From positions 1 to 27,725 of IMG/VR virus record IMGVR_UViG_3300047563_000033: a stretch of DNA of 27,725 nt. One strand, given 5' to 3'. Below are positions 1,385 to 24,137 of this stretch, piece by piece. The notes beneath the pieces were generated by a model, which saw only the letters and a program-made list of their open reading frames with translations, ran no database searches and was not told where the DNA came from. The DNA comes from a virus. The first letter of the stretch is position 1. Each line of letters opens with the position of its first letter. The position numbers and the translations under genes were made by a program.

Positions 1385-1731
1385 CTTTATGTCCAGATAG
1401 TTCGTGACGCTATCCCGGTGTGCTCTGACACCCGCCTACAGTCTCCTGTAGGAACAGACCATATCACCACCTTCAGCATTACCTGGTAAGGTGCTTTCTA
1501 CTTCGGAGTTACTAACCCCTACTCCCACTACTGGGATGGTCGTTGAACGTTCACCTGTACGGTGCTTCGCTGCTGATTGACCCTACCGTATGTTTCTTAA
1601 ACTTTCACGCTTACCGTTTCCAGTTACGTTGTAGTACATACGTTTGACAGGTTTTTCCAGCAATTCAAAAAGTTATCATTGTAGAGTTTCTTCTACAGGC
1701 GACAGTTAATAATCTCTATTGAGAATTATCT
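1385..1731 (-). ncRNA. Group I self-splicing intron, 347 nt, no ORF, inside the beta-prime catalytic motif
   Basis: Read on the minus strand, the segment has the complete group I core. P1 is exon CGAU paired with IGS GUCG (1703-1700), with a U-G wobble at the 5' splice site (after 1732) and an extended AU-rich hairpin between. P2 is TGTAGA/TCTACA. P3 is TTGAA/TTCAA. The P element AATTGCTGG is at 1664-1656 and the Q element AATCAGCAGC at 1578-1569; GCTG/CAGC form P4. The R element GTTCAACGACCAT is at 1548-1536 and the S element GATATGGTC at 1465-1457; GACCAT/ATGGTC form P7. P8 is TCCCA-GTAG-TGGGA. P9 is CCTACAG-GAGA-CTGTAGG, followed by two more hairpins. The last base (1385) is G, and exon 2 begins GGU, which can pair with ACU just before the IGS (P10). 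P, Q and R closely resemble the phage T4 td intron (IA-type). It encodes no endonuclease, so any mobility must be helped in trans. Confidence 0.93.
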
Positions 1732-3180
1732 ATCGTAGTCAGCGCCTAGGCGTCCGATATGTGCCACGCTTGGCGACATGGAGTTATAAAAACTGATACC
1801 GGTACTTGGAAACTCATATGCCACGTTACCTGTTTCAGTCCAGTCTGCACCCAGTTCTTTGCGAGTCAAGGATTTAACTGTGGTCTTTAAGTATACGTAA
1901 CTTGGGTAGATACTACCGTACCCTGTAACAGGATAACGTGTTACCAAACAAGGAATAGTCGAAGCATCCTTATAAACCGACAGATACAGTAACTCAGCGT
2001 ACGTAATCGGACGTAGGTATTTCTTATCACGTCCTTCAGGGAGTTCGTTGACATCCTGAACAAAACGATAGTGAACACCATCGTCATAGATCAGTCCCAA
2101 GTAGTATCCGTTGATCTCCAAGGGTTCGTGGCGTAAGTTCTCTTCACTGAACCTTGCAAAGACTTTCTCCAACCCTTCATATGTAGTCCATTCGTCAAAG
2201 TAGTCACTATCTACGTGGATAGCTTCCTTCTGAAGAGTTTTCTTATTCACCAATACCGCAGGTGCGTTAGGTCCTACGAAGACATCACTGATAAAAGTAT
2301 CACGAACATGTTTCACTGCTAACGGCAAGATCATCCGTAGATACTGATACAATCCAATCACAGTCTGGTTAGTGCCTACTGTTTTAGGAGAATGTAATTC
2401 AACCGTATCGGGAATGTGCGAGGTAATCACGTTCCGCGTAGAGTTAAAGACCTTACGAGCTGCCCATTTACCTAAGATAAGTTTAGACTTACCTTCAAGC
2501 ATGTTCTTAATGTAGTCATAGATGTCCATGACTGCAATCTGCAAGTTAAACCGTGCTGAATCAAGATAAGCGGCATTGATCTTGGTGTTGACGTTCTCAA
2601 TCACACCAGAAATAGAAAGCACTTTCAGGTACAGTCCATTGATCTCGTCTTGCGAAGGTTTACCATTAGCATCGATGGTGTAATCTCGCAAACCCGCAGG
2701 CATCACAACTAACTTGTCTAACAAGCAGTTTTCACGGTACTTGTTGATCAACTTGATACTGAACTCACGTTTAGCAGAAGGTCGCTCCTCGAACGTCAGG
2801 TTAGGGAAATGCTTCAAGAAGAAATTATATCCAGTCTCACCTGTTCCTGCGTTGGAGCGAACAAAGTCCTTAAGCTCCGTATCAAATACAGCGTAAGCTT
2901 TGCCAGACATGATCTCACCGTACAAACCCTTCAAATCACAAAGAGTCTTAAACACCACCGGGTGAAATACAGAGACTCGCATGTCAATGTACGAGAACAG
3001 ACGGTTACGTTTCTCCTCGCCTACTTTACCAAAGGTTTCAATTGAGAATAAACCATCTTGGTGGAAGGTTTTGGTACTAGCGGCAAAGATATCGTGGACT
3101 TTAACTGGACGAATATTGCGAACGTCACTATCCTTTAACACGAGTAAATCAATGTTAAAGGGTAAAATATTAGCGGCCAT
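1732..3180 (-). CDS. RNA polymerase beta-prime, N-terminal fragment, exon 1 (probably virion RNAP, phiKZ gp180-like)
   Basis: Exon 1 gives 483 residues; with exon 2 (1223-1384) the product is 536 residues. Beta-prime landmarks appear in order: near the N-terminus DGLFSIETFG then IDMRVSVFHP (compare the bacterial EGLF...FG and hI-L..PV.H signatures); VVMPAGLRDY (the lPV-PP-LRP element); LGKWAARKVFNSTRNVI (the GKRVDfSgRsVI lid/switch element); VTRYPVTGYGS (the NRaPTLHR-like element); and finally ADYD, completed by GD in exon 2. The zinc ribbon between the first two landmarks appears to be absent. Without splicing, translation ends at 1726 after ADYDR. I chose the ATG at 3180 because AGGA lies 7 nt upstream and homology begins right after it; an in-frame ATG at 3246 would add 22 residues that use rare codons such as AGG and ATA. 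Lying divergently beside the giant tail lysin favours the virion polymerase over the non-virion one, an inference from phiKZ gene order. Confidence 0.87.
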
Positions 3181-3276
3181 AGTGGGTCCTAAATGTGGTA
3201 TAAGATAATCCCCAAGCCAAATCCTGTGATGTGACTGTTCCGTCATGTAACCTAGTAAGCCAGTAAAGGGTAACCC

Positions 3277-6200
3277 ATGGCAAAAAAAGAAACATTAAAC
3301 ACTGACAAGTTTGACCTTGACAGTGAGTTAGACTTCGATAGTTTTGGATTTGACGACGTTGACTCCAGAATTAATCCCGAAGTCAAGAAGGGAAGTAAGA
3401 GTCGTAAAGTAGTGACGGATGTCTTTCGTGGCTCCGTCAGTGGTTTCAAAGACGAGTTCAAGAAACCTCAGCTCTTAGCGAAGATGACCAAAGATGCTCT
3501 ACCAAAGAGCTACGGGTCTGTCTTTCAAGCTGCAAGTGAGGTAAGTCAATCTACGTCACGGCTATACGATGAAGCTGTTAAAGAAATTAAACCTCAATTA
3601 GGTCGTATCGCTAAGAAGATTGACCGTTTAGTCCCTGATGAACAAAAGACTCTTAAAAAGATGTCTTCTAAGATCAGTGGTATGTTTGGGGATAACGTAT
3701 CTACGCAAGGTCCTTCTCGTGAAGAACGCATGGACCAAGGTGTGGCTACGGCACTCTCACAAGTGTTCGGTGCGCAGCATGAGGCATCTCTCCAACAGGA
3801 AGCACGCGCTACTGCCGAGACACGTATCAAAGATCAAGTTGAGAGCAAACGCTTTGAATCTAACTTTGGTATCCTGAACACTATTAATGAGAGCACTCAG
3901 CGTATGAGTGCCTATACTGAACGTGTCACGCAAGCTTTCCAAAAGAAGAGCTTGGAACTTCAGTATCGCAGTTACTTTGTTCAAAATGAACTGTTGTCTT
4001 TATCGGGTAAGTTTTATGAGGTTTTTAAGAACCAGAATGAAGCTATCGTAAAGAACACTGGTTTACCTGACTACTTGAAGATCACGATGCATGAGCGTCT
4101 TGGTCAAACTGCTAAGAATAAGTTTGCTGAACGTGCTAACGATTTCTTTTTTGGATCTCAAAGTGTCATTGGTCGTGGGATGAAGAAGATCACCGGTCAA
4201 GCCATGGACTATATGTCCGGGATCAAGCAAGGTATTGAAGCTGCGTTGATGGGTGTTGAGACAGGTGCCGACTTAGCAGAGAACATGGGTAGCATGGGGA
4301 TGAGTAAATCTACCCTTGCAGGTAACGCCCTAGGTGCCAAAGGTGCCGGTATGTTCTCAGGCTGGCTCAGTAAGCAACTCAATAAGTTCTTTGAGAACAG
4401 TGAGAAAGCCAAAGCTGTTCGTCGTGTAGGTTATCAAGCAGGCACAATTGCTAGTAACCTTCCTGGTGCTATCGATACCCTTCAGAAGAGTCAGAAGTAC
4501 AAAGACATGTCCGATAAGGGCGGCGTGATTGGTTTCCTTACCAAAGTCTTTGACTGGACCGCCAATAACTTCAAGGACGAACGTCCTGATGGTAATATTG
4601 AAAACCCAAACAGCATTGGTAGCTTGTCCTTAGGTGGTAAGTTCGATAACCGCACACAACGCAGTATCGTTGAAGTGATTCCTGGATACCTTGCGCATAT
4701 TCTGCGTGAGATCAACATGTTCCGCACTAAGAGTGAAGACTCTCAGTTGCTTCGGTATGATTTCGCTAAAGGAAAGTTCAGTACTTCCAAGGAAATCTAC
4801 AAGTCTATGAATAAGACCTTTAGTGATAAGATCAAGTCTTCGTCACAAGGGTTTAACCTAGATAACCTTGCATCTGAGATCACAGGTGGTGAAGTACTTG
4901 ACGCTAAGTCTGAAGAAGAACTCAAGAAGTTCTACGACGAGATTACTAAAGACAAGTCTATTGAACAAAACAAGACAGGTATCCTAGAGTCTAAGCAATA
5001 CAAAGCTTTGGCTTCTAAGAAACCTGAGTTAGCTTCAATGGTCAGAGGTCGCTTAGATGGTAACAAGTCTAACGGTAAGTATAGTAAGAGCGTGAAGGAG
5101 TTCCTCTTACGTATCAGTAAGATCCCTAACTTTGACTATACCGCTGAGAACATCTTGGCAACTTCTGAGTTTGCTGAGTTACAAAAGCGTAACAAAGGTG
5201 CAGCCAAAGCTGTCCGTGAGTTCTTGGGTAAGCAAAGCTCAGGAGACGATGAACAGAAAGCCAAAGGTCATAACCATCTGACCTCTCGTATGTTAGCAAT
5301 CCGTGGGTCTACACCGGATATCCGCAGTGAGATCCAAGAGTTTGTCAACATGGGTAATGCTGACATCTTGATCAAAGAAGGCGTTCTCATAGAAACCGAT
5401 GACGGTAAGTACAAGATCAATGAGGATAAGTATCACCTCATGGTCGATGCTGGTACTCTGGACGTTAACATGGATGACCCGGTGTCCACACGTATGGGTT
5501 TGAGTGAACGTTTCCAGACATCGGACATGCACGCTAAACAAGGTATCAGTAAGTTCTCGCCTAAGAAAGCCTTAGCCTCTATCCGTAAAACTTCTATTTT
5601 CAACTGGAAGTACAAGAAAGGTAAGGGTAACGACCGTCAACACGTCGGTCCTATGGCCCAAGAGGTTAACCGTAACATTGGTAAAGATGCAGCTCCCGGT
5701 GGAACCACTATTGACTTAGTCAATATGAACGGTAACAACATGGCAGCTATCCAGGCTCTGGCTGAGAAGCAAGAGAACATCATGGATAACGACAAAGGTT
5801 CCGTCTCTATCCTATCCAACATCCGAGACAACATTGCACGTATCGTTGAACTGATTGAAAAGTCCGGTTCGCATAACGCAGGTTCTGGCGTTGGCGATAA
5901 TAGCAGTTATACAGGTATCCTGACATCAATGTTTGGTAATACCGGTAAACTCCTTGGTAAAGGAATGAGTGACATTACTAGCGCCGGTGTTAAAACAGCT
6001 AAAGGTGCAGGTAAACTTGCAGTCAAAACTGGTGAAGGTTTGAGTAAGATCTATGACAAAGTCAAGGATCCCATGCAAGCCACTGCTATTTGGACACTCG
6101 GTAAAGCCCGTGACATGTTCATGAAAGGTATCGAGACAACTGGCGATATCATGTTTGATAAGATCCCTCGTGCTTCCAAATGGCTGTCTGAGAAAGGTGG

Positions 6201-9200
6201 TAAGTTAGGTGAGTGGTTGTCTGAGAAAATCACTGACATGAAAACTATCAGCAAGGATCTCTATATCAAAGGTCGTAAGAACCCAGTTCTTCAGGCTACA
6301 TTGATTCAAGCTGGTTACTATCGTGACCAAGCTACCGGTAAGGTCATTAAGACTGCTAAAGACTTACAGAACCTTAAAGGTAACATTGTTAATGAGTCCA
6401 ACAAGGTTATTGCTACCTTAGAAGATGTTGCCGAAGGACTCCAAGATAACCTTGGTAACAAGGTAAGAACTGGTGCTCAGAAAGCATTGAGTTTCAGCAA
6501 GGCTGCATTGTCCGCTGGCTTTACTGCTGGTGGTAAGTTCCTCAAAGGACTCTTGGGAGGTGCAACTGGTCTCTTGGATAAGGGACTGGAGATGCTTCCA
6601 GCGTCCTTTAAAGCATTGTTCTCAGGTTTGGGTGACATTGGTATTGGTAGTACCCGTATCTACAATGTACTCGTAGAAATGCGTGACATGATGCGCGGCG
6701 GTGCTTCTATGTCTAATAACTCTTCTGATCAAGGTGAACCTGGTGAGTTTGTAGGACCTATGCCGCAAGGACTCTTTGGTAAAATCAAAGACAAGGTCAA
6801 AGGTAAGGTAGGTGCGTTGCAAGACAAACTTACAACCTCTCGTGACAAACGCAACAAGTCTGCCAAAGGCAAGCGCAAAGCACGTAAGGAAGATCTGAAG
6901 CAAAAGGCTTCTAAATCCAAACGTAAGAATGGTGAACCTACGATTGCTGCTGAAGAAGAAACTAAGAGTACTTGGAAAGATAAGCTCTCTGGAGCAGTGA
7001 GTGCTGTCGGTAAAATGACTAGTGACATGAAGACTAAAGCAGCAGCCGCTGTTGGTCCTACTGTTGCTGGTAAAGCAGGAATGCTTGGTGATCGCGTTGG
7101 CTCTTGGAAAGATCGTTTAGTTGCACAAGCTGAACGCGCTAAGAACAGTGCGAAGTCTATGTTACAAGCTGACCTAGCTCCTAAATATCGCTCTCAAGAG
7201 AACGCTATCGATATGATGATCAAGAAAGCCTCTGGCTTATTTGACATGGCTAAAGATGGCTTAGGTGACGCCTTTGGTAAAGCTGGTGACCTCATGGAGG
7301 GTGCTGGTGACTTGATGAGTAAATCTAAAGGTGGTAAGAAGGGCGGCATCATCCGTAGCATGGGTCGAGGTCTATGGGGTGTCACTAAGCTTGCTGGTAG
7401 AGGACTGTTAGGTGTTGGTAAACTAGCAGGCAGAGGAGCTTTAGCGGCTGTTCGTAATCCTCGTGCTGCGCTAACTGCTATCCGTACAGCTGCTACTGTT
7501 GGTAGCTTGATGACCGGTGGCGTGGGTTCTGCTTTATTAGCCGGTGTAAGTGCTGGCATATCAGTAATTGGTGGCATTGTATCTTCGCCATTTGTATTGG
7601 GCGCAGCAGCTGTTGCGCTTACCGCATACGCAGGTTACAAAGGTTATAAGTACTTAACCCGTAACAGCGCTAACGAGCTTGAAGAGATTCGACTCTTACA
7701 GTACGGCTTTACACCTGACTTGAAAGACCACTACCATCTCGGCTTGAAGTTAGAAGCTTACTTGAATGATGGTTGTATTGGTTTTGATGGCAACAAAGCT
7801 ATGCTTCTGGAGAAGAAGGTTGACAAGAAGGAAATGTTGTCTATCTTCTCTATCGACGAAAATGATGAAGAAGCCTGTGCAGCATTCGGTAAATGGTTCA
7901 AAGATCGTTTCAAACCTTTCTTCTTGACTCATGTAACAGCTGTCAATGCTATCGATAACAAAGTTAAGTTAGAAGACGCAACTAAGTTCAAACCAAAGGA
8001 AAAGCTTCAGTATCTAAGTACTATTGGTTTCAATAACGGTCCTTACGGCGAACTCACAAGCCCTACTAAACTCATTCCTACTCTGACAGATACCAAGGAA
8101 GCCACGCTTGCCTTGATTAAGAAACTGACAGATAAGTATGTTGAGTTGACAAAGGTGAAAGAGAAGAAGTCTTCTACTATTGAACCGGAGAAACCCAAAG
8201 CACCTGCTGCGGTAACCGCTCCAAAGGTAGACCCTGTAACTAAACCTGCTGATCTGCGTCCTGGTTCTACCAAACCAAGTGTGGACGGCGGTGATCCGTT
8301 TACAGGTGAAGAAGGTAAGGAAACGATTGTCACTAAAGACTCTGTGCGAGGTGGTAACGGTATACCTAAGCTTACGATGGCTCCAGGTGGACTTGCTGAC
8401 GGCTCTGGTGCCGATCAATACTTACAACTTGGTAAAGGGGTAAGCTTAGCAGGACTGAACCCAGAACTCTTGAAGAACCTTCGTGCTATGGCACAAGAGT
8501 ACGGCGAGCGTACAGGTAAACCTATTACGATTACTTCTGGTTCTCGTAGTACTGCACAACAACAGGCTCTTTACAATAAGAACCCAAGGAAGGCAGCTAA
8601 ACCTGGTAATTCTCTGCATGAGTTTGGACTAGCGATTGATGTGAACTCCTCGGACTTGGATGCTTTGGAAGAAGCGGGACTGATGCGTAAATATGGATTC
8701 ACACGACCAGTGGGCGGTGAGCCATGGCATATGGAAGCTATCGGTATCCAGGGTAACTTGAGTCTTGCTAAGAAAGATGAGAGTTTTGCCGCACAAGCAA
8801 TTGCTGCATCGATCGGTAAGGGTGGTGGTGGAGTCGGTACAATGGACGGTGTACCTTTGGGTAAACGTAACCAAGAACTCTCCATGGCTATTCTGAACAC
8901 GACCTCTGAGCAGATGGCTAAGGTTAGTGATAAGAATGCAGCTACGAAAGCACTCGCTCCTAGAACGGATATTGCGGCTAATGATAGTAATGTCAAAGCG
9001 CCGGCTGGTTCTATTGCAGCGGCTTATGATGACAATAAGCGTATGTCTAAGTACACTGCACCTGCGGTTACTAGTACTCGTCAACCTTCGTTAGTAGCAG
9101 ATGGTGAAACTAAACCGTCTACACAGGTGGCTGCAAAGGCAGATCCTGTTGATCCTAATAACAAGGAAGACGTGAAGAACGCCATCATGAGCATTGCTAA

Positions 9201-10119
9201 GGGTAATGGATCCGACCCCAATGAAGCAGCGCTGATTGCTGCTGTTGAGTCGAGTCTGAATCCTAATGCGAAATCCAATCGTACGTCCGCATCTGGTGCA
9301 TTCCAGTTTGTGAATGATACCTGGAAAGAGCAGATGGGTAAACATGCACGTAAACACGGTTTAGACCCCAACACACCACCGTCTGACTTAACCGCCAGCA
9401 CGTTGATGGCTACTGAATACTTTAAGAGCAATCGCAAAGCTATCAGTAGCGCTAAGGCTAACCCCAATATCACTGACGTTTACTTGGCGCATCTCTTAGG
9501 TGCATCGGGTGCTCGCAAGATATTGAGTGCAGATCCTAACCAGATAGCCGCTCAGATTCTTCCTAAGGTAGCTCGTAAGAATCCTGAGTACTTCTACACT
9601 AACGGTAAAGCTACAACAGTGGCAGAACTGTATAAGAAGATAGATGACAAGTTAGGTAAGGTAGCCCGTGAGAATGGTATCAACATTCCAACAGGTAATA
9701 CCATTGGAACTCCAACAGCAGTACCAAGTGCCGCCGGTACCACTACCGCTAGCGCTGAACCTGTTGCTAAAGTTCCACCGTCTCCAACTGTAACAACACT
9801 GCCACGTGGGTCTTTGGTTAACAATAACCCAACCGTTATATCGCCTTCGACAAGCGGCTCCATGGCACAGTCTACACAGATGGGTACAACAGGGTTCGCT
9901 ACGATGGCTGATACATTGTCTAAGCAATTGGACGTACAGACACAGATGCGAGATATCCTGAAGACGATTGCTGATAAACTTGATCCTGAAGTACTCAAAG
10001 ATTTGAATCAAAAGGTTGGAGCAATGGACAAATCCCAGTACACAAACAGTGGACCGGTAAATAACAGTGCACCAAAGACTGTTCAGTCTGCTATCGACCT
10101 TCGACGAAAAACTGCTTGA
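3277..10119 (+). CDS. Giant tail protein: S74 chaperone, M15 peptidase and lytic transglycosylase domains (phiKZ gp181-like)
   Basis: The protein has 2,280 residues; AAGGG lies 6 nt before the ATG. Order of parts: an acidic N-terminus and a long helical, Lys-rich region (1-740); an S74-type intramolecular chaperone/autoprotease (about 735-840) with Ser749 and Lys754 in SDMHAK, then FNWKYK and GPMAQEV; more helical sequence with a very basic stretch (about 1186-1222) and GRG-L-GV-KLAGRG repeats; a hydrophobic segment (about 1410-1460) that could enter a membrane; an M15-type LD/DD-peptidase (about 1725-1825) with SLHEFGLAID (H1781, D1788) and PWH (H1818); a lytic transglycosylase (about 1965-2110) with catalytic Glu1991 in AAVESSLNP and ASGAFQFVNDTW; and a Pro/Thr-rich tail. 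Together these suggest a tape-measure-like or tail-tip protein that opens peptidoglycan during infection. In phiKZ the equivalent gp181 also lies next to the beta-prime fragment gp180 (recalled, not checked). It stands divergent to beta-prime, with under 100 bases between them. Confidence 0.9.
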   Translation: MAKKETLNTDKFDLDSELDFDSFGFDDVDSRINPEVKKGSKSRKVVTDVFRGSVSGFKDEFKKPQLLAKMTKDALPKSYGSVFQAASEVSQSTSRLYDEAVKEIKPQLGRIAKKIDRLVPDEQKTLKKMSSKISGMFGDNVSTQGPSREERMDQGVATALSQVFGAQHEASLQQEARATAETRIKDQVESKRFESNFGILNTINESTQRMSAYTERVTQAFQKKSLELQYRSYFVQNELLSLSGKFYEVFKNQNEAIVKNTGLPDYLKITMHERLGQTAKNKFAERANDFFFGSQSVIGRGMKKITGQAMDYMSGIKQGIEAALMGVETGADLAENMGSMGMSKSTLAGNALGAKGAGMFSGWLSKQLNKFFENSEKAKAVRRVGYQAGTIASNLPGAIDTLQKSQKYKDMSDKGGVIGFLTKVFDWTANNFKDERPDGNIENPNSIGSLSLGGKFDNRTQRSIVEVIPGYLAHILREINMFRTKSEDSQLLRYDFAKGKFSTSKEIYKSMNKTFSDKIKSSSQGFNLDNLASEITGGEVLDAKSEEELKKFYDEITKDKSIEQNKTGILESKQYKALASKKPELASMVRGRLDGNKSNGKYSKSVKEFLLRISKIPNFDYTAENILATSEFAELQKRNKGAAKAVREFLGKQSSGDDEQKAKGHNHLTSRMLAIRGSTPDIRSEIQEFVNMGNADILIKEGVLIETDDGKYKINEDKYHLMVDAGTLDVNMDDPVSTRMGLSERFQTSDMHAKQGISKFSPKKALASIRKTSIFNWKYKKGKGNDRQHVGPMAQEVNRNIGKDAAPGGTTIDLVNMNGNNMAAIQALAEKQENIMDNDKGSVSILSNIRDNIARIVELIEKSGSHNAGSGVGDNSSYTGILTSMFGNTGKLLGKGMSDITSAGVKTAKGAGKLAVKTGEGLSKIYDKVKDPMQATAIWTLGKARDMFMKGIETTGDIMFDKIPRASKWLSEKGGKLGEWLSEKITDMKTISKDLYIKGRKNPVLQATLIQAGYYRDQATGKVIKTAKDLQNLKGNIVNESNKVIATLEDVAEGLQDNLGNKVRTGAQKALSFSKAALSAGFTAGGKFLKGLLGGATGLLDKGLEMLPASFKALFSGLGDIGIGSTRIYNVLVEMRDMMRGGASMSNNSSDQGEPGEFVGPMPQGLFGKIKDKVKGKVGALQDKLTTSRDKRNKSAKGKRKARKEDLKQKASKSKRKNGEPTIAAEEETKSTWKDKLSGAVSAVGKMTSDMKTKAAAAVGPTVAGKAGMLGDRVGSWKDRLVAQAERAKNSAKSMLQADLAPKYRSQENAIDMMIKKASGLFDMAKDGLGDAFGKAGDLMEGAGDLMSKSKGGKKGGIIRSMGRGLWGVTKLAGRGLLGVGKLAGRGALAAVRNPRAALTAIRTAATVGSLMTGGVGSALLAGVSAGISVIGGIVSSPFVLGAAAVALTAYAGYKGYKYLTRNSANELEEIRLLQYGFTPDLKDHYHLGLKLEAYLNDGCIGFDGNKAMLLEKKVDKKEMLSIFSIDENDEEACAAFGKWFKDRFKPFFLTHVTAVNAIDNKVKLEDATKFKPKEKLQYLSTIGFNNGPYGELTSPTKLIPTLTDTKEATLALIKKLTDKYVELTKVKEKKSSTIEPEKPKAPAAVTAPKVDPVTKPADLRPGSTKPSVDGGDPFTGEEGKETIVTKDSVRGGNGIPKLTMAPGGLADGSGADQYLQLGKGVSLAGLNPELLKNLRAMAQEYGERTGKPITITSGSRSTAQQQALYNKNPRKAAKPGNSLHEFGLAIDVNSSDLDALEEAGLMRKYGFTRPVGGEPWHMEAIGIQGNLSLAKKDESFAAQAIAASIGKGGGGVGTMDGVPLGKRNQELSMAILNTTSEQMAKVSDKNAATKALAPRTDIAANDSNVKAPAGSIAAAYDDNKRMSKYTAPAVTSTRQPSLVADGETKPSTQVAAKADPVDPNNKEDVKNAIMSIAKGNGSDPNEAALIAAVESSLNPNAKSNRTSASGAFQFVNDTWKEQMGKHARKHGLDPNTPPSDLTASTLMATEYFKSNRKAISSAKANPNITDVYLAHLLGASGARKILSADPNQIAAQILPKVARKNPEYFYTNGKATTVAELYKKIDDKLGKVARENGINIPTGNTIGTPTAVPSAAGTTTASAEPVAKVPPSPTVTTLPRGSLVNNNPTVISPSTSGSMAQSTQMGTTGFATMADTLSKQLDVQTQMRDILKTIADKLDPEVLKDLNQKVGAMDKSQYTNSGPVNNSAPKTVQSAIDLRRKTA

Positions 10120-10142: not shown

Positions 10143-10180
10143 AGACCATGGGGCTTCACAGCCCCATGGTCTTCTTTTGG
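10143..10180 (+). terminator. Intrinsic terminator after the giant tail gene
   Basis: A 12-bp perfect stem (10143-10154 with 10161-10172, core GACCATGGGGC/GCCCCATGGTC) has a 6-nt loop TTCACA and is followed by TTCTTTT. It lies 24 nt after the stop of the giant tail gene and upstream of the true start of the next gene. An ATG inside the stem (10148) is in frame with the next gene but should not be taken as its start. Confidence 0.8.
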
Positions 10181-10204
10181 TCTACTATTTTTAAGGATTC
10201 ATTT

Positions 10205-12379
10205 ATGGTGACAAAGAAATTACCTTCATCGCGAACAGTTGAGGTGAATGGGACATATGTCATGTCTCCAAATAGTTCCCTACCTTCGGATTACAATGAG
10301 CAGGTTCTAGATTCCCAATGGACTAAGAATGCGTTTCTATTGAACGACTTAGACATTGGCGATTTGAGTGACCGCACAAACCGTTATTACTCTTCGGCTG
10401 AATCTAAGTTTACGGATGGTCGTTTAGGTTGCAATATTGGTATTAATGCTAGGCCTCAGTTTACTCGGTACAGTGATATCCGTTCCAAAGGTCGTAACAA
10501 CGGTCGCAATGACGTAGCTGTGACTGCTGTAAGTGGTAACCACGGTATGGGACGCTACTATAGTGAAGCCATTGACGATCCGTCGCAAACTATCTACATG
10601 CGCTTTGGTGTACCGCAGTTTAGCGGTATGATGTCATTTCTCTCTCGTGCTTATGATGCGGACATGGTGTCCTTAGCACGCACCGGTCGCGCTACGGGGT
10701 TACTGTATAACGCAGGTAAGATGTTTGGTACAGTAACAGCTGTAACAGCTTTCCCACAGTTAGCTGTCATGGTTATGATGGGTAAAGCATTAAGTTGGGT
10801 ATTCAGTAAACCTACCAGTAAGTTCTATACTGTCAAACCGACTATGCATACCTATTGGGCTTCGGTTGAAAGCTTAGTTAATAACATTGCAGTGACACGT
10901 GGTCTCTTGCCACGGGTAATGAGCAGCGACGGTGACGGCGGAGATCGTTTAGGTCAACCGTATCGTATCGATAGTGAGCAAGTAAGCTACCTCGCTACAC
11001 TGATGCCTGAAGTTTTTGGTTCTGCAAGTAACATTGGCGGTGTAGGAACCGATAACTATATCAACGTGTCTTCTATTGTTAACCGTGCACAGCGTACTGC
11101 TAACCAGATCTTCTTAGCGGAATATCAGGCAGCAAACAATACAACAGCTAGTGATTTCACTGGTTTCTTAAAGCGTGGTTTGACTGGCAAAGGTCAGCAT
11201 AGTACCTATATCACAACCACTACTGGTAATATGTTAACCGGTAACTTGATCGATGGGTATCAAACTATCTCTGCACGTTTGAATAAGTTCTTCATGCTAG
11301 GTGAGTATAAACTTGACACCAATTCAAATGCCACAGAACAAAACCCTCAAGCGCAACCTAAACAAGAAGATACCGCTGACACCAAGTATCCAGATGTAGG
11401 TAAGCCTAATCCTTTTAGTGAACAGTTCCTCCAAAACTTAGATGCTGAGTTCCGTGATGGTGCACAGTTTGCAGTTTTCAAAGTAGATCACACCGGTGCT
11501 ACTCAGGAAGCTTTTGGTAACTCTGTCCAAGAATCTGACCTTGCTGCTAAGATCAACGGTATCTCTTCTACCGCTAGACAGTTACGTTTTACTATGTCCG
11601 ATGGTAACATGACTGGTACCGGTATCGAGGAAATGGTACGAGGTGCAGTGGGCGGTGCTGTGGATGTTCTTAAAGGCGTGGCAGATGGTGTTACTTTAGG
11701 ATTTAGTAACGTGTTGGCCGGTTTAGGCGGTTCAGGTTACATTGATATTCCTAAGCACTGGCAGAGTTCTAGTGCAACGCTCCCAAGGTCATCGTACACA
11801 ATCAAACTTATTAGCCCCTACGGTAATGTGGTATCGCAGATACAAAATATCTATATCCCACTTTGCATGATCTTGGCAGGTACGTTACCATTGTCTACAG
11901 GTAAAGCGTCTTACACAAGTCCTTACCTTTGTCAACTCTACGACCGTGGTCGCTGTCAAGTCCAGAACGGTATGGTAGAATCGCTTTCTATCTCTCGCGG
12001 TACCAGTAACCTTGCGTTCAATACTCGCGGTAACCCGCTAGCTATTGATGTAACGTTCTCGGTTGTAGATTTATCGTCTATCATGCATATGCCTATATCT
12101 TCAGGCGGTCTGTTCTCTACAGATACCAACATGGATAGCGACAACATCATGAGCGACTATATTGCAGTGCTAGCCGGTCAAGACTTATATACGCAGCTTT
12201 ATGCTGTACCTAGGTTAAAACTGGACTTAGCCAAGCAATTGACCAAGGCTAGCCGTCTGTTCTCTCCTGCTGCATGGGCAGCAACAGTGCATGACGCAAT
12301 CCCTAGTGTTATCTCTAACGTTATTGAAGGCTCTAACCGTGGTTCTGCCGTCATTGGCGGTAATGGTTTCCAACAGTAA
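10205..12379 (+). CDS. Virion structural protein, probable baseplate or tail component
   Basis: The protein has 724 residues from the ATG at 10205 (MVTKKLPSSRTVEVNG), which has AAGGA 7 nt upstream. An upstream in-frame ATG at 10148 falls in a terminator hairpin and has no ribosome site. The N-terminal half holds a short hydrophobic stretch (around residues 180-205) and no enzymatic motif. A Gln/Pro/Asp-rich linker lies around residue 385. The C-terminal third (YTIKLISPYGNVV, NIYIPLCMILAGTLPL, GMVESLSISRG, LAIDVTFSVVDLSSIM) has the beta-rich pattern of phage tail and baseplate proteins in which a product must fit a position and bind neighbours. Its place right after the tail lysin also suggests the tail. 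Family-level identity is not recognised; the structural role is inferred. Confidence 0.75.
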   Translation: MVTKKLPSSRTVEVNGTYVMSPNSSLPSDYNEQVLDSQWTKNAFLLNDLDIGDLSDRTNRYYSSAESKFTDGRLGCNIGINARPQFTRYSDIRSKGRNNGRNDVAVTAVSGNHGMGRYYSEAIDDPSQTIYMRFGVPQFSGMMSFLSRAYDADMVSLARTGRATGLLYNAGKMFGTVTAVTAFPQLAVMVMMGKALSWVFSKPTSKFYTVKPTMHTYWASVESLVNNIAVTRGLLPRVMSSDGDGGDRLGQPYRIDSEQVSYLATLMPEVFGSASNIGGVGTDNYINVSSIVNRAQRTANQIFLAEYQAANNTTASDFTGFLKRGLTGKGQHSTYITTTTGNMLTGNLIDGYQTISARLNKFFMLGEYKLDTNSNATEQNPQAQPKQEDTADTKYPDVGKPNPFSEQFLQNLDAEFRDGAQFAVFKVDHTGATQEAFGNSVQESDLAAKINGISSTARQLRFTMSDGNMTGTGIEEMVRGAVGGAVDVLKGVADGVTLGFSNVLAGLGGSGYIDIPKHWQSSSATLPRSSYTIKLISPYGNVVSQIQNIYIPLCMILAGTLPLSTGKASYTSPYLCQLYDRGRCQVQNGMVESLSISRGTSNLAFNTRGNPLAIDVTFSVVDLSSIMHMPISSGGLFSTDTNMDSDNIMSDYIAVLAGQDLYTQLYAVPRLKLDLAKQLTKASRLFSPAAWAATVHDAIPSVISNVIEGSNRGSAVIGGNGFQQ

Positions 12380-12430: not shown

Positions 12431-13474
12431 TTAAGCAAAAGCCGCCATTGCGTCAAAAGAGTTCATGTTGTACGCTGCCATCATGTAAGTGTCATCGGTT
12501 GCAACTGGGATATCCAATTGACTGTCATTGAAACTATAACCTAATTGTTCAGCGCGTAACACTTCGTCAACCTCACCGTTATATCCGTCGGCAAAGCCAA
12601 CTGAGAGCATACCGTCATATTGACTCATGTTCCAGTTCTCATCTACCAACTCCATAGCAGCTTTACTTCTCACTGCGATATCCGTCAAAGAGGTTCCTTT
12701 AACTTCAGAAGGCATCTTAAAGTTAGCAAAGAAGTCTTTAATGATACCGGGGTTTTCCACTGTAGAATGAAGACCCGCAGCTGCGCCAGAGATATCGAAC
12801 ATACCCAAGACGTTACCGCTACTTGCCAGATAACTCATGATTGCACCAGAGCCACGTGACAAGACATCCTTATTCAAGTCACCAACCAACGCAGAGAAAA
12901 CTCCACACAAGTTCATGTCGTAACCAAACTTACTCAAACTTACCAAGTTCTGTAGCGCCGAATTTAAGTCTTTGTGGTTAGCGGCATAGGCGCCATCGGT
13001 TAACTTATTAAGAACGTCACTGTATTCAGAGCTGGTACAGCCGTCTTTATTGCCTTTGCGTTTCTTACCACCACAATCAATATCGGTGTCATAACGTTTA
13101 CCGATACTACCTGTTCCTAAACCCTTCGTTTGACACTTAGGAGCAAGCTTGTTAAACACAGCTTGTGCTTTAGGTTTGTCTTTCAGTAGACCTGAGACAA
13201 GCTTATCGATGTCTTTGGTAGAGAGTTTACCGATGTCACGGACTTTACCCATGGCATTCTTGGCTGCACGTACGGTACTGTCAACCGCTTGAGCAGCTGT
13301 TACGGTATCTGCTTGCTTAGCGCTATCAAAGAACGCCTGCACTTGAGCAGTGATGTTATCTGAACCAATATTTGGAGAGTTGAGAATATCGCTAGTGTTG
13401 GCAGTGATCATGTCCACAATAGCGACATTCGTCTGTTGATCTAACGATTTCTGTCTTACAGCACTAATAGCCAT
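12431..13474 (-). CDS. Unknown protein, probable virion component (347 aa)
   Basis: The ATG at 13474 has AAAGG 7 nt upstream. The N-terminal 110 residues are Ala/Asp/Lys-rich and helical (MAISAVRQKSLDQQTN). A short Cys-containing, basic segment follows around residues 112-150 (C-Q-T-K, D-C-G-G-K-K-R-K-G, G-C-T-S-S-E) and might bind a metal or be a loop, but I see no known zinc signature. The remainder is mixed helical, with a Gly/Ser/Ala-rich stretch and an acidic, Met/Ala-rich C-terminus. No signal peptide or membrane segment. It is convergent with the baseplate-like gene and sits alone between two hairpins, so it is probably its own transcript. Membership of the particle is inferred from its neighbours only. 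Confidence 0.75.
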   Translation of the reverse strand: MAISAVRQKSLDQQTNVAIVDMITANTSDILNSPNIGSDNITAQVQAFFDSAKQADTVTAAQAVDSTVRAAKNAMGKVRDIGKLSTKDIDKLVSGLLKDKPKAQAVFNKLAPKCQTKGLGTGSIGKRYDTDIDCGGKKRKGNKDGCTSSEYSDVLNKLTDGAYAANHKDLNSALQNLVSLSKFGYDMNLCGVFSALVGDLNKDVLSRGSGAIMSYLASSGNVLGMFDISGAAAGLHSTVENPGIIKDFFANFKMPSEVKGTSLTDIAVRSKAAMELVDENWNMSQYDGMLSVGFADGYNGEVDEVLRAEQLGYSFNDSQLDIPVATDDTYMMAAYNMNSFDAMAAFA

Positions 13475-13529
13475 ATGAAACCTTTGAAGTATACATTACT
13501 ATAAGATAACTGAGGACAAAAAAAGAAGG

Positions 13530-13565
13530 AGATACAGAAGAGGGGTAACGCCCTCTTCTGTATCT
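13530..13565 (-). terminator. Intrinsic terminator, minus strand
   Basis: A 15-bp perfect stem (13530-13544 with 13551-13565, AGATACAGAAGAGGG and its complement) has the loop GTAACG. Read on the minus strand it is followed by CCTTCTTTTTTTG. It touches the stop codon of the 13565-14059 gene, so transcript and reading frame end together. Confidence 0.8.
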
Positions 13566-14059
13566 TAACTTTGTCGACTATCACGAAGAGCTTTTTGCTC
13601 GTCCATATATTTCCAGCTTACTTCCAGATGGTGATGAACCCGCGTCATGAAATGTTTATTAAACGACCAGATGACACAGTTTTTCAAGTCCCACCAGAGA
13701 TCTGTCTTGAGTTGGTAGTCCTCTGCATTCTGGTAGAAATATGTCCGCTCAATGGTATCTTCATTCTTTGCATTGTCCAACCAAATACCTTGTAACACTT
13801 GCATGTACTTACCATAGTCTTCGTCAGATAACATATGGTAGACGCGAAGCGGGGAATCGTTTCGTTTGATGTCGCGAAACGTTACGAGTTTAAACTGGTC
13901 TCGTTGAGCCTGTATGTCACGAAGACCTTTGGCCGTTGCACCAAACTCAAACTCAGCGCGACCCATATAGTCCAAGTCGACAGCCCTACTAAAGCGTTCG
14001 CCCAAGTAGTCGTTCAACGGGCGATTGATTTCACCACGTTGTACTAAATAGATTTTCAT
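13565..14059 (-). CDS. Unknown phage protein with a YMGRAEFEFGA motif (164 aa)
   Basis: The ATG at 14059 begins MKIYLVQRGEINRPLNDYLG. The most striking element is LDYMGRAEFEFGATAKGLRD (residues about 29-48). Very similar Y-M-G-x-A-E-F-E-x-G-A strings recur in small uncharacterised phage proteins, so this is likely a real conserved family, but I know no function. The rest is alpha/beta with several Trp and Tyr (W-W-D-L-K-N and H-H-H-L-E-V-S-W near the end), and no membrane segment. Hairpins flank the gene on both sides (14079-14108 and 13530-13565), so it is probably transcribed alone. Confidence 0.75.
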   Translation of the reverse strand: MKIYLVQRGEINRPLNDYLGERFSRAVDLDYMGRAEFEFGATAKGLRDIQAQRDQFKLVTFRDIKRNDSPLRVYHMLSDEDYGKYMQVLQGIWLDNAKNEDTIERTYFYQNAEDYQLKTDLWWDLKNCVIWSFNKHFMTRVHHHLEVSWKYMDEQKALRDSRQS

Positions 14060-14078
14060 TTTTTAATCTCACGGTAAA

Positions 14079-14108
14079 AGATGAAGAAGGGATATCCCTT
14101 CTTCATCT
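14079..14108. terminator. Hairpin terminator between minus-strand genes
   Basis: A 13-bp perfect stem (14079-14091 with 14096-14108, AGATGAAGAAGGG and its complement) has the loop ATAT. The plus flank is GGTTTTTTATTT; the minus flank is TTTACC, a weak T-run. It separates the gene ending at 14119 from the gene starting at 14059, both on the minus strand. Confidence 0.7.
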
Positions 14109-18892: not shown

Positions 18893-19555
18893 TTAAAGAA
18901 GGTTACTAATAGTAGATCGATACCCGAAAGGTTTTTCCACAGCATCTTCTATCGACCAACCTAATCTTAATCTATCCCGTAATATACCATCTTTAAGATT
19001 ATATTCTCTAGCAAGATCGGCTATTGTATAATCTTTGTTCCTGTATGTTACAATATGATTATTTCTTTTATTATTAGATTGCTCCTCTACTGTTGACCAT
19101 TTGCAATTATTAGGTGTATAATCTCCGTTATTATCTTCCCTATCGATAGAATGTTCCGATGTAGGTCTTGATCCTAAATCCTTATGAAAGTTTTCAAAAG
19201 AATTGCTCCAACTATCGCAAACCTTTATACCTCTCGCTCCGTAATTTGCGTAAGCTTGATCTTTTGGATTTTTACACCTTTGTATCATAGCAGCCCACGC
19301 TCTATATTCGGGCGTATGGGAGAGGCCGTGTGTAGTTAGCAATAACTTTCCGTTAGCCGCATTAGTTTCTTTTTTCAGACAACCGCAACTCCCAGTGTTT
19401 TCAGAATGTAAATTATTACTAGCTACAACCACAGTAACACCGCAGTCACATAGGCAGTTCCATAAGACTCTACCTTTATTGTTTCTTCCGTTCTCTGAAA
19501 GTGCAGTTAATCTACCAAAACGTTGCCCGGATAGATTTTTAACTACGTTAGCCAT
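18893..19555 (-). CDS. Free-standing HNH homing-type endonuclease (220 aa)
   Basis: The ATG at 19555 has AAGGA 8 nt upstream. N-terminal FGRLTAL and a Cys-rich zinc-type segment (C34, C36, C38 in CLCDCG; C57, C59 in SCGCL) are typical of phage HNH proteins. The nuclease core runs YRAWAAMIQRC, YGARGIKVCDSW, then EHSIDREDNNGDYTPNNCKW (H135 to N150 region). The last 50 residues (TIADLAREYNL... WSIEDAVEKP) look like a NUMOD1-type helix-turn-helix for DNA binding. The gene is visibly richer in A and T (ATA, AAT, AAA codons) than its neighbours, a sign of recent acquisition. It lies between two core genes rather than in an intron. It may spread itself at this site, or supply the endonuclease for the ORF-less intron at 1385-1731; neither is shown. 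Confidence 0.85.
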   Translation of the reverse strand: MANVVKNLSGQRFGRLTALSENGRNNKGRVLWNCLCDCGVTVVVASNNLHSENTGSCGCLKKETNAANGKLLLTTHGLSHTPEYRAWAAMIQRCKNPKDQAYANYGARGIKVCDSWSNSFENFHKDLGSRPTSEHSIDREDNNGDYTPNNCKWSTVEEQSNNKRNNHIVTYRNKDYTIADLAREYNLKDGILRDRLRLGWSIEDAVEKPFGYRSTISNLL

Positions 19556-22565: not shown

Positions 22566-24137
22566 TTATTCATGAAGCTGTTTTGGAAAGAAAATCTTAT
22601 CAGCGAAGAAATTAGACCAGATACCTAGACCGGACTCACAGTCAATGACTGTTGCATAGCGGATAGAGTTTTCAGACTCTCGCCATGTGAGCAAATAAAC
22701 GGTCGGCTTATGGTTTTCCAGCTTTTTAAGATTGTTACGTGGTAGTAAGTCAGTTCCCAAGATCAATGGTACTTTGAGCTTAACAAGGGAGCCGTTGTAC
22801 GGTTCCTCAATTTCGATAGCCATATCCCTGAAACCAACAACATACTCAGACTTTAACGTGTAATTGGTCTGAGTATCGCCTTTGACAGTCTTCTCTTCCT
22901 TCTCGTAGAAGGTGGAGGTAACGTCATGGGCGTTCAACTGGATGTTGTTGTCCACTAGATTAAACCCATTTTCCCGATACTGCAGGAACCTATCTAGTAA
23001 CTCTTCTAGAAGGTTGAAGCTCTCAAGTGTCCGCATGGATAAACCTGCGGGATTCACCTCTACAGTTACGGCTTGCTTATCAAAGAAATTGATATTCAAG
23101 TTAGACCTAGTTCCATAGTGATTAGCCTTACTGCTAAGCAAGGAGTACTTGCCGTATTCAGAAAGGTAAGGATAGACGTCTTTAGAGAACACACGGTCAA
23201 GCTTCATCATGATGATAGCGTTGGTATCCATGGCTATCTCATATTGACGGGTCTTCACGTCTTCAATAGCTTGGTCATGTTCTGTGAGCTTGACCACAGC
23301 AAGTCCAGTCTCAGGAATACGTTTACCAATCAACAGGTCAGCACCACCGGTATCTGCTTGGAAGTAATGGCCTTTGATGTTGTACTGATCGACACTATTA
23401 AAGTAGACGCGTTTAAAATTGAGGAAAGGGTGACGGTCAATTTCTTGTTTCCAGTAGCCCTTAGCATCGCTGAGTTTAAATTCAGTGCGACCCACATTGT
23501 CCATAGAGTAGTTGGTACCGATACCAGCTAGGATATCGGCATGGGTATTACCAAATACATCATCGTGACCTTTGACCCAATTCACAGTGACTGTGATACC
23601 TTTGCTCAGCAACTGCTTATACAAAGAGTAAGCACGAATCCACCACAGATGGTTAGTAACCGTAGCGCCGTCTGGTTTCTTCCAGTCGTGACGTTCCCAG
23701 TTACGACACCAATCTGTGATACCGTTCTTAACATATTGACTATCAGTGTAGATACTGATAATGCTCAAACCAAGTTCAGGCTCCGAGAGACGTTCTAACG
23801 AATGAGTCAAAGCTTGCAACTCTGCTTCATTGTTGGTTCCTTGTGACAGGCTAGAACCAAGAAAGTCCAGATACTTAATAACTTCAACAGGTTTTTCAGT
23901 GTCCAAAGGTTTCTTACGACCTACTGGAATGTAACCTTCATTGGTTGCATGGTGACCTTCTGCGACCGTGGGTTTGATACCAGACGCTAAACGGTAGGTG
24001 TAGCCATGACCGCCCCAGCCGATGTAACCGGGGTTGGTGTACTTGCAACTACCATCGGTGTAGATAACTGCACCTAGAATAACGTCTTTGTCCTGAACTC
24101 CCTCGGACGCGGTATCGGCTGTGGAATCGTTCGTCAT
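22566..24137 (-). CDS. RNase H type I with a long unassigned C-terminal part (523 aa)
   Basis: The N-terminal 200 residues are an RNase HI domain with all catalytic residues: D28 in VIYTDGSC, E106 in TNNEAELQAL, D122 in IYTDSQYVKNG, and H181/D191 in KGHDDVFGNTHADILA. WCRNWERHDWKK matches the substrate-binding helix region. It would cut RNA in RNA-DNA hybrids, for example replication primers or stalled transcripts. Bacterial RNase HI is about 155 residues, so some 330 extra residues follow. They begin around VGRTEFKLSDAKGYW and are alpha/beta with no known motif, perhaps a targeting or processing domain. The ATG at 24137 has only a weak ribosome site. phiKZ-like phages carry an RNase H-like gene a few genes from UvsX (recalled). 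Confidence 0.85.
   Translation of the reverse strand: MTNDSTADTASEGVQDKDVILGAVIYTDGSCKYTNPGYIGWGGHGYTYRLASGIKPTVAEGHHATNEGYIPVGRKKPLDTEKPVEVIKYLDFLGSSLSQGTNNEAELQALTHSLERLSEPELGLSIISIYTDSQYVKNGITDWCRNWERHDWKKPDGATVTNHLWWIRAYSLYKQLLSKGITVTVNWVKGHDDVFGNTHADILAGIGTNYSMDNVGRTEFKLSDAKGYWKQEIDRHPFLNFKRVYFNSVDQYNIKGHYFQADTGGADLLIGKRIPETGLAVVKLTEHDQAIEDVKTRQYEIAMDTNAIIMMKLDRVFSKDVYPYLSEYGKYSLLSSKANHYGTRSNLNINFFDKQAVTVEVNPAGLSMRTLESFNLLEELLDRFLQYRENGFNLVDNNIQLNAHDVTSTFYEKEEKTVKGDTQTNYTLKSEYVVGFRDMAIEIEEPYNGSLVKLKVPLILGTDLLPRNNLKKLENHKPTVYLLTWRESENSIRYATVIDCESGLGIWSNFFADKIFFPKQLHE

Follow-up and report, generated by a model that had tools for sequence, protein, structure and literature searches.

The stretch of DNA analysed here (the window) is a 27.7 kb (27,725 nt) IMG/VR fragment of an uncultivated jumbo phage. 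The giant tail protein gene that it carries, the domains of its product and the adjoining genes are as follows:

1435-1721, minus strand: group I intron (Rfam RF00028, 70.8 bits)
1726-3246, minus strand: first exon of a phiKZ gp180-type RNA polymerase piece (37-42% identity to gp180 orthologs)
3277-10119, plus strand: gp181-type giant tail protein (single open frame, 2280 aa, 245 kDa)
3277-4956, plus strand: conserved N-terminal module of gp181 proteins, residues 1-560 (PHROG match and relatives)
5521-5844, plus strand: internal S74 domain, residues 749-856 (Pfam PF13884, AF2 model and fold matches)
7522-7632, plus strand: hydrophobic, membrane-segment-like stretch, residues 1416-1452 (hydropathy scan)
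8455-8730, plus strand: M15/VanY peptidase domain (Pfam match at residues 1727-1798) with conserved H1781, D1788 and H1818 (Pfam, alignment)
9190-9447, plus strand: SLT lytic transglycosylase domain (residues 1972-2057) with conserved E1991 (Pfam, alignment)
10148-12379, plus strand: ORF in the place of phiKZ gp182 (position and size; no informative Pfam match)

The group I intron interrupts the phage RNA polymerase gene inside the catalytic NADFDGD motif, the upstream exon ending in ..LGADYD and reading restarting at GDTCSATAV...

By sequence, the giant protein is an ortholog of phiKZ gp181 and SPN3US gp239, because it matches PHROG 3201 (phrog_3201; E 1.6e-202, best stretch residues 1-947), its nearest named proteins come from phiKZ-type jumbo phages, SPN3US gp239 matches it in separate parts (N-terminal, middle and SLT; E 9e-19 and 2e-14), and the gene order is that of this group. 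The RNA polymerase piece lies upstream and divergent (minus strand) and the gp182-type gene downstream, neighbours equal to those in 201phi2-1, PCH45, Goslar, SPN3US and others. The window protein thus shares with phiKZ gp181, SPN3US gp239 and 201phi2-1 gp276 its N-terminal module, found in 113 sampled gp181-type ORFs longer than 900 aa, as well as its size, SLT domain and gene order beside RNA polymerase pieces and a gp182-type gene. The literature labels proteins of this type either as a needle-like cell-puncturing hydrolase or as the tail tape-measure protein: a review presents phiKZ gp181 as a muralytic, putatively trimeric, needle-like device for puncturing cells (PMC5380687), the annotation of 201phi2-1 gp276 reads putative cell-puncturing virion protein, and SPN3US gp239, detected in the virion tail by mass spectrometry (PMC10052503, PMC5105663), is the tail tape-measure protein in mass-spectrometry papers (PMC10052503, PMC5105663, PMC5694885). 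An earlier note, made from the sequence of the window alone, had called the protein a giant tail lysin, a description refined here to a protein of lysin and tape-measure type. The hydrophobic stretch at residues 1416-1452 fits a tape-measure role and proves nothing. A segment of about 60 residues with the pattern D.Y..G...P.L.A....G.Y.D..TGK.I... was also seen at residues 993-1050 (window about 6250-6430, plus strand), and it occurs once or twice per protein in many gp181s.

The S74 domain lies between the N-terminal module and the hydrolases, with the following elements:

5518-5523, plus strand: predicted scissile bond T748-S749 (by homology, as the S74 cut lies directly N-terminal to the dyad serine; PMC10769870, PMC3742440)
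5521-5523, plus strand: candidate catalytic Ser749 of the dyad (invariant in the 14 gp181 S74 copies and 56 other aligned copies)
5536-5538, plus strand: candidate catalytic Lys754 of the dyad (invariant in the same 14 and 56 copies)
5647-5661, plus strand: GPMAQ motif of the S74 core, residues 791-795 (conserved in gp181 copies)
5716-5844, plus strand: residues 814-856, the long helix that closes the S74 domain and may form a trimeric coiled coil

The earlier note had proposed an S74-type chaperone domain here from SDMHAK (residues 749-754, nt 5521-5538), followed by FNWKYK and, from residue 791, GPMAQEV. These motifs were found in that order, and Pfam Peptidase_S74 (PF13884) matched residues 749-798 with 36.3 bits (cut-off 22; E 6.8e-9). 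The proposed start of the domain at nt 5521 was retained, but its proposed end at nt 5790 was too early, as the model extends to about residue 856 (nt 5844) with a long C-terminal helix. The claim that the domain sits in mid-protein with two hydrolase domains behind it was also borne out by Pfam (VanY/M15 at 1727-1798 and SLT at 1972-2057): 1,532 residues run from Ser749 to the end of the protein. The motif chain SD...K-(25-60)-GxxAQ[ED] arose in 22 of 20,000 shuffles of the window protein (about 0.1%) and is therefore suggestive only when taken alone. This frequency is what a chance resemblance could appeal to, but that reading, to which we give practically no credence, is already refuted by the profile match, a confident S74 fold and 14 orthologs; the profile, fold and relatives together place the S74 identity far beyond chance.

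Structure prediction agreed with the fold expected from the note. An AF2 monomer model of residues 739-857, built with a 70-sequence alignment, reached a pLDDT of 91.8 and superseded an earlier run on residues 681-871 with 11 sequences (pLDDT 57.5). The model consists of short helices, a two-stranded element and a long C-terminal helix (model residues 76-118, corresponding to 814-856), which occupies the place of alpha4 in MYRF (PMC8326128). The only Foldseek matches with E < 0.001 were the three chains of the MYRF ICA structure 7dc3. A second structure aligner also placed 7dc3 first (Z 9.2 over 108 residues, 16% sequence identity), followed by the T5 L-shaped fibre 4uw8 (6.8), endosialidase 3gw6 (6.7) and GA-1 3gud (6.6), all of them S74 structures, and the next chain was unrelated (Z 3.9). 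These middling Z values are backed by sequence, since the family profile picks up PDB entries 8jov, 7dc3, 3gud and 6f45. According to both profile and model, the window domain is a member of the S74 family, having the S74 fold with a long terminal helix. Upstream, residues 681-740 were predicted with low confidence to be mostly helical, and a beta-helical stalk was not evident.

To place this domain among gp181 proteins, 80 IMG/VR contigs fetched through the neighbouring RNA polymerase gene, and thus blind to S74, were searched, and four of their gp181s carried the domain (L031, L032, L033 and L059). Further S74-bearing gp181s were added by searches with the S74 region itself, giving 13 further orthologs from uncultivated phages with the domain at the corresponding place, or 14 in total after removal of duplicates. 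Pfam S74 was matched in all 14 copies, each of them internal, with at least 1,348 residues after the matched stretch. A rescan of the 113 gp181-type ORFs gave an all-or-none result (S74 E < 1e-29, or else nothing better than about 0.3). Among the 98 gp181s sampled for the tree of the N-terminal module, 14 had the domain, a frequency that describes the sampled contigs only. None of 14 named-phage gp181 orthologs sampled had an S74 domain or, by Pfam, an M15 peptidase domain, whereas the window protein has S74 at 749 to about 856 and M15 as well. Named-phage searches with three gp181 S74 regions matched no jumbo phage, and the sole record above 100 kb was a weak match to a Synechococcus phage baseplate (E 0.05); single-sequence patterns from the window's own S74 region, which were too specific, gave no matches in the viral-contig search. 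Both M15 and SLT domains were matched by Pfam in all 14 S74-bearing gp181s, and the presumed M15 metal ligands H1781, D1788 and H1818 and the SLT glutamate E1991 were invariant in them.

The S74 copies of the 14 gp181s have diverged to a mean pairwise identity of 34% (range 22-53%), and only 11 of 119 alignment columns are invariant, S749, D750 and K754 among them. The Ser-Asp-x-x-x-Lys pattern is kept in all 14 proteins while the residues between vary freely; in GPMAQ, G, M, A and Q are found in 14 of 14 and P in 13 of 14. An apparent loss of the dyad in L023 proved wrong, as an insertion splits it from the domain body and SDINVK is kept about 90 residues before GPMAQ. One earlier search used the dyad as one of two patterns, but most copies were found by the GPMAQ and AP..ID patterns with the dyad excluded, and its conservation is therefore not a search artefact. 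Serine, aspartate and lysine that stay invariant among freely varying neighbours form a pattern of catalysis. The alignments thereby support indirectly that the gp181 S74 domain, intact over deep divergence, is an active autoprotease.

In a tree of the N-terminal module, from which S74 was excluded, the S74-bearing gp181s clustered (5 changes, versus a mean of 13.4 after shuffling, with 0 of 500 shuffles as low). Twelve of the 14 fell in one set together with two members without S74, L018 and L020, the latter having a disordered-looking linker instead. In the tree of the S74 domain, 13 of the 14 gp181 copies formed one branch (support 98/95) nested among copies at the C-terminal end of their proteins, and the L145 copy lay outside it, on a long and uncertain branch. 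The simplest reading of these topologies would be that the domain was captured once, then inherited and lost a few times, although gain and loss cannot be told apart on the trees. The earlier note had pointed to trimeric tail spikes as the usual bearers of such domains. As a refinement of this, the nearest S74 relatives examined form the ends of proteins that are internal to the virion or ejection-like: those C-terminal copies that were tested fall in PHROG 8003 (virion structural, head and packaging), L174 falls in PHROG 4287 (DNA ejection protein), and two annotated examples adjoin a gene for an internal virion protein or virion-associated component and a DarB-like gene. From these assignments and neighbours, the domain seems to derive from virion proteins of an internal or ejected lineage and not from tail spikes. 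The virion proteins of phrog_8003 and phrog_4287 (for example Klebsiella phage LASTA gp04 and Ochrobactrum phage POI1126 gp26) share the same GPMAQ-type S74 lineage, but there the domain ends proteins of 360-550 residues. The DNA-ejection-type protein of L174 (9104-12172; 1,023 residues) has S74 at 308-356 and more than 600 residues after it, which makes it a possible second internal case outside gp181.

Endosialidase NF, the T5 L-shaped tail fibre and the GA-1 neck appendage share with the window domain the SDxxxK dyad, the G..AQ motif and the fold, but their S74 domain is C-terminal and released, whereas 1,532 residues follow the predicted cut in the window protein and no stalk is evident before it. 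The MYRF ICA, the best fold match, is also in mid-chain and cuts its protein into two parts; it differs in being eukaryotic and in freeing a transcription factor from a membrane. A C-terminal position is what phage S74 domains usually have, but the family does not demand it, as MYRF, an accepted relative, is internal too. Splitting a chain from within is known for S74 in eukaryotic MYRF; for a tail lysin or tape measure of a phage the arrangement is new, and searches of open-licence papers turned up no mention of S74 in either gp181 or a tape-measure protein.

In the known cases, S74-type domains first form a trimer by means of a C-terminal coiled coil and only afterwards cut before the serine (PMC8326128, PMC10769870), and mutation of the serine or lysine abolishes cutting (PMC3742440, PMC10769870), as do S587A and K592 mutants in MYRF, where the cut is in mid-chain (PMC3742440). 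By analogy, the S74 domain, inserted between the conserved N-terminal module and the remaining chain, would hold three gp181 chains in register with the help of its C-terminal helix, and after trimerisation Ser749, aided by Lys754, would attack the T748-S749 bond. The part lengths given in the earlier note for this cut are correct, with calculated masses of 83.4 kDa (748 aa) and 161.9 kDa (1,532 aa). The C-terminal part would open with the S74 trimer and close with the M15 and SLT cell-wall hydrolases. The tail would probably keep both parts together up to infection, and the part with the hydrolases, no longer linked, could then move independently; a freer hydrolase part during injection seems the most natural idea for the purpose of the split. 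T4 gp5 is a trimeric, lysozyme-bearing needle that is cut in maturation with both parts retained, so that a two-part needle has a precedent, although with different chemistry.

A gp181 of this type is probably produced as a single chain that is then divided into two, because its cutting residues have not changed in 13 distant relatives. Cleavage itself appears likely on this comparison and a division of roles between the parts plausible; family, fold, dyad, internal position and conservation were computed, and from these we infer trimer, cleavage and separation of roles. The listing of phiKZ gp181 as a putative trimer (PMC5380687) and the working mid-chain domain of MYRF (PMC3742440) support the proposal. 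Counting against it are the many gp181s without S74, L018 and L020 in the same branch included, the beta-helical stalk that S74 chaperones usually follow and of which the low-confidence helices upstream of this one give no clear sign, and the L145 copy outside the gp181 S74 branch. Since most gp181 orthologs lack S74, those of all sampled named phages included, the cut cannot be required for gp181 function in general. On balance, a gp181-type protein with a competent mid-chain S74 domain that trimerises, cuts and leaves two parts is, with moderate confidence, our best explanation of the whole. The more specific proposal that in one phiKZ-like branch the tape-measure or tail-lysin protein self-cleaves in mid-chain through a captured trimerising S74 domain, yielding a tail-anchoring part and a separately delivered hydrolase part, is offered tentatively, as somewhat doubtful in its full extent.

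Other functions can be imagined for the domain. It might only trimerise or align the chains, with cleavage slow, absent or inconsequential and the dyad kept as support of the fold; holding a trimer together in this way would fit a cell-puncturing protein that is putatively trimeric (PMC5380687), and relatives of gp181 do manage without any cut. However, the dyad is invariant in all 14 proteins while the residues between it change freely, L023 keeps it although an insertion separates it from the domain body, and published serine and lysine mutants of S74-type domains stop cutting (PMC3742440, PMC10769870), so we regard a clamp without a meaningful cut as rather unlikely. If the cut does occur, S74 and everything downstream might be released, as usually happens to the S74 part of tail spikes and fibres (PMC8326128), and the virion would keep only the N-terminal 748 residues. 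The discarded part would then hold both hydrolases, whose active-site residues are invariant in all 14 copies, and hydrolase domains serve in the virion in phiKZ gp181 (PMC5380687). The loss of 1,532 residues would make little sense, and the conserved content of both parts speaks against discarding the C-terminal one, leaving release improbable. It is more improbable still that S74 is a decaying passenger of a recombination event with no present function: its spread is patchy (14 of 98 sampled gp181s), but core and dyad are intact in 14 of 14 copies that share 22-53% pairwise identity, and both trees indicate long shared descent.

Phage S74 domains are usually seen as aids to folding at the C-terminus that are discarded afterwards. 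The one described here stands in mid-chain in a giant tail protein, flanked on either side by conserved domains, and is intact over deep divergence. If it cuts, a single gene would yield a tail lysin in two parts by a programmed step, a parallel to MYRF in animals, and it would give a direct handle on which part of a gp181-type protein stays in the tail and which enters the cell.

Some further observations concern individual contigs. In L021 (9400-20327), the gp181-type gene is split into many frames, with near-identical repeats around 12800-14100, and the broken frames are probably contig assembly or read errors. The gp181 of Burkholderia phage FLC6 (L007, 4414-10530) has a tape-measure-like GEAGPEAIMPL where the S74 insertion aligns; this motif was dropped as a general replacement of S74, because besides FLC6 it was found only in L075 among the sampled gp181s. 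Elsewhere in the window, a 220-aa ORF (18893-19555, minus strand) resembles by eye an HNH-type homing endonuclease, with no Pfam match, and a 523-aa protein (22566-24137, minus strand) contains an RNase H domain (E 6.2e-24) plus a long C-terminal part.
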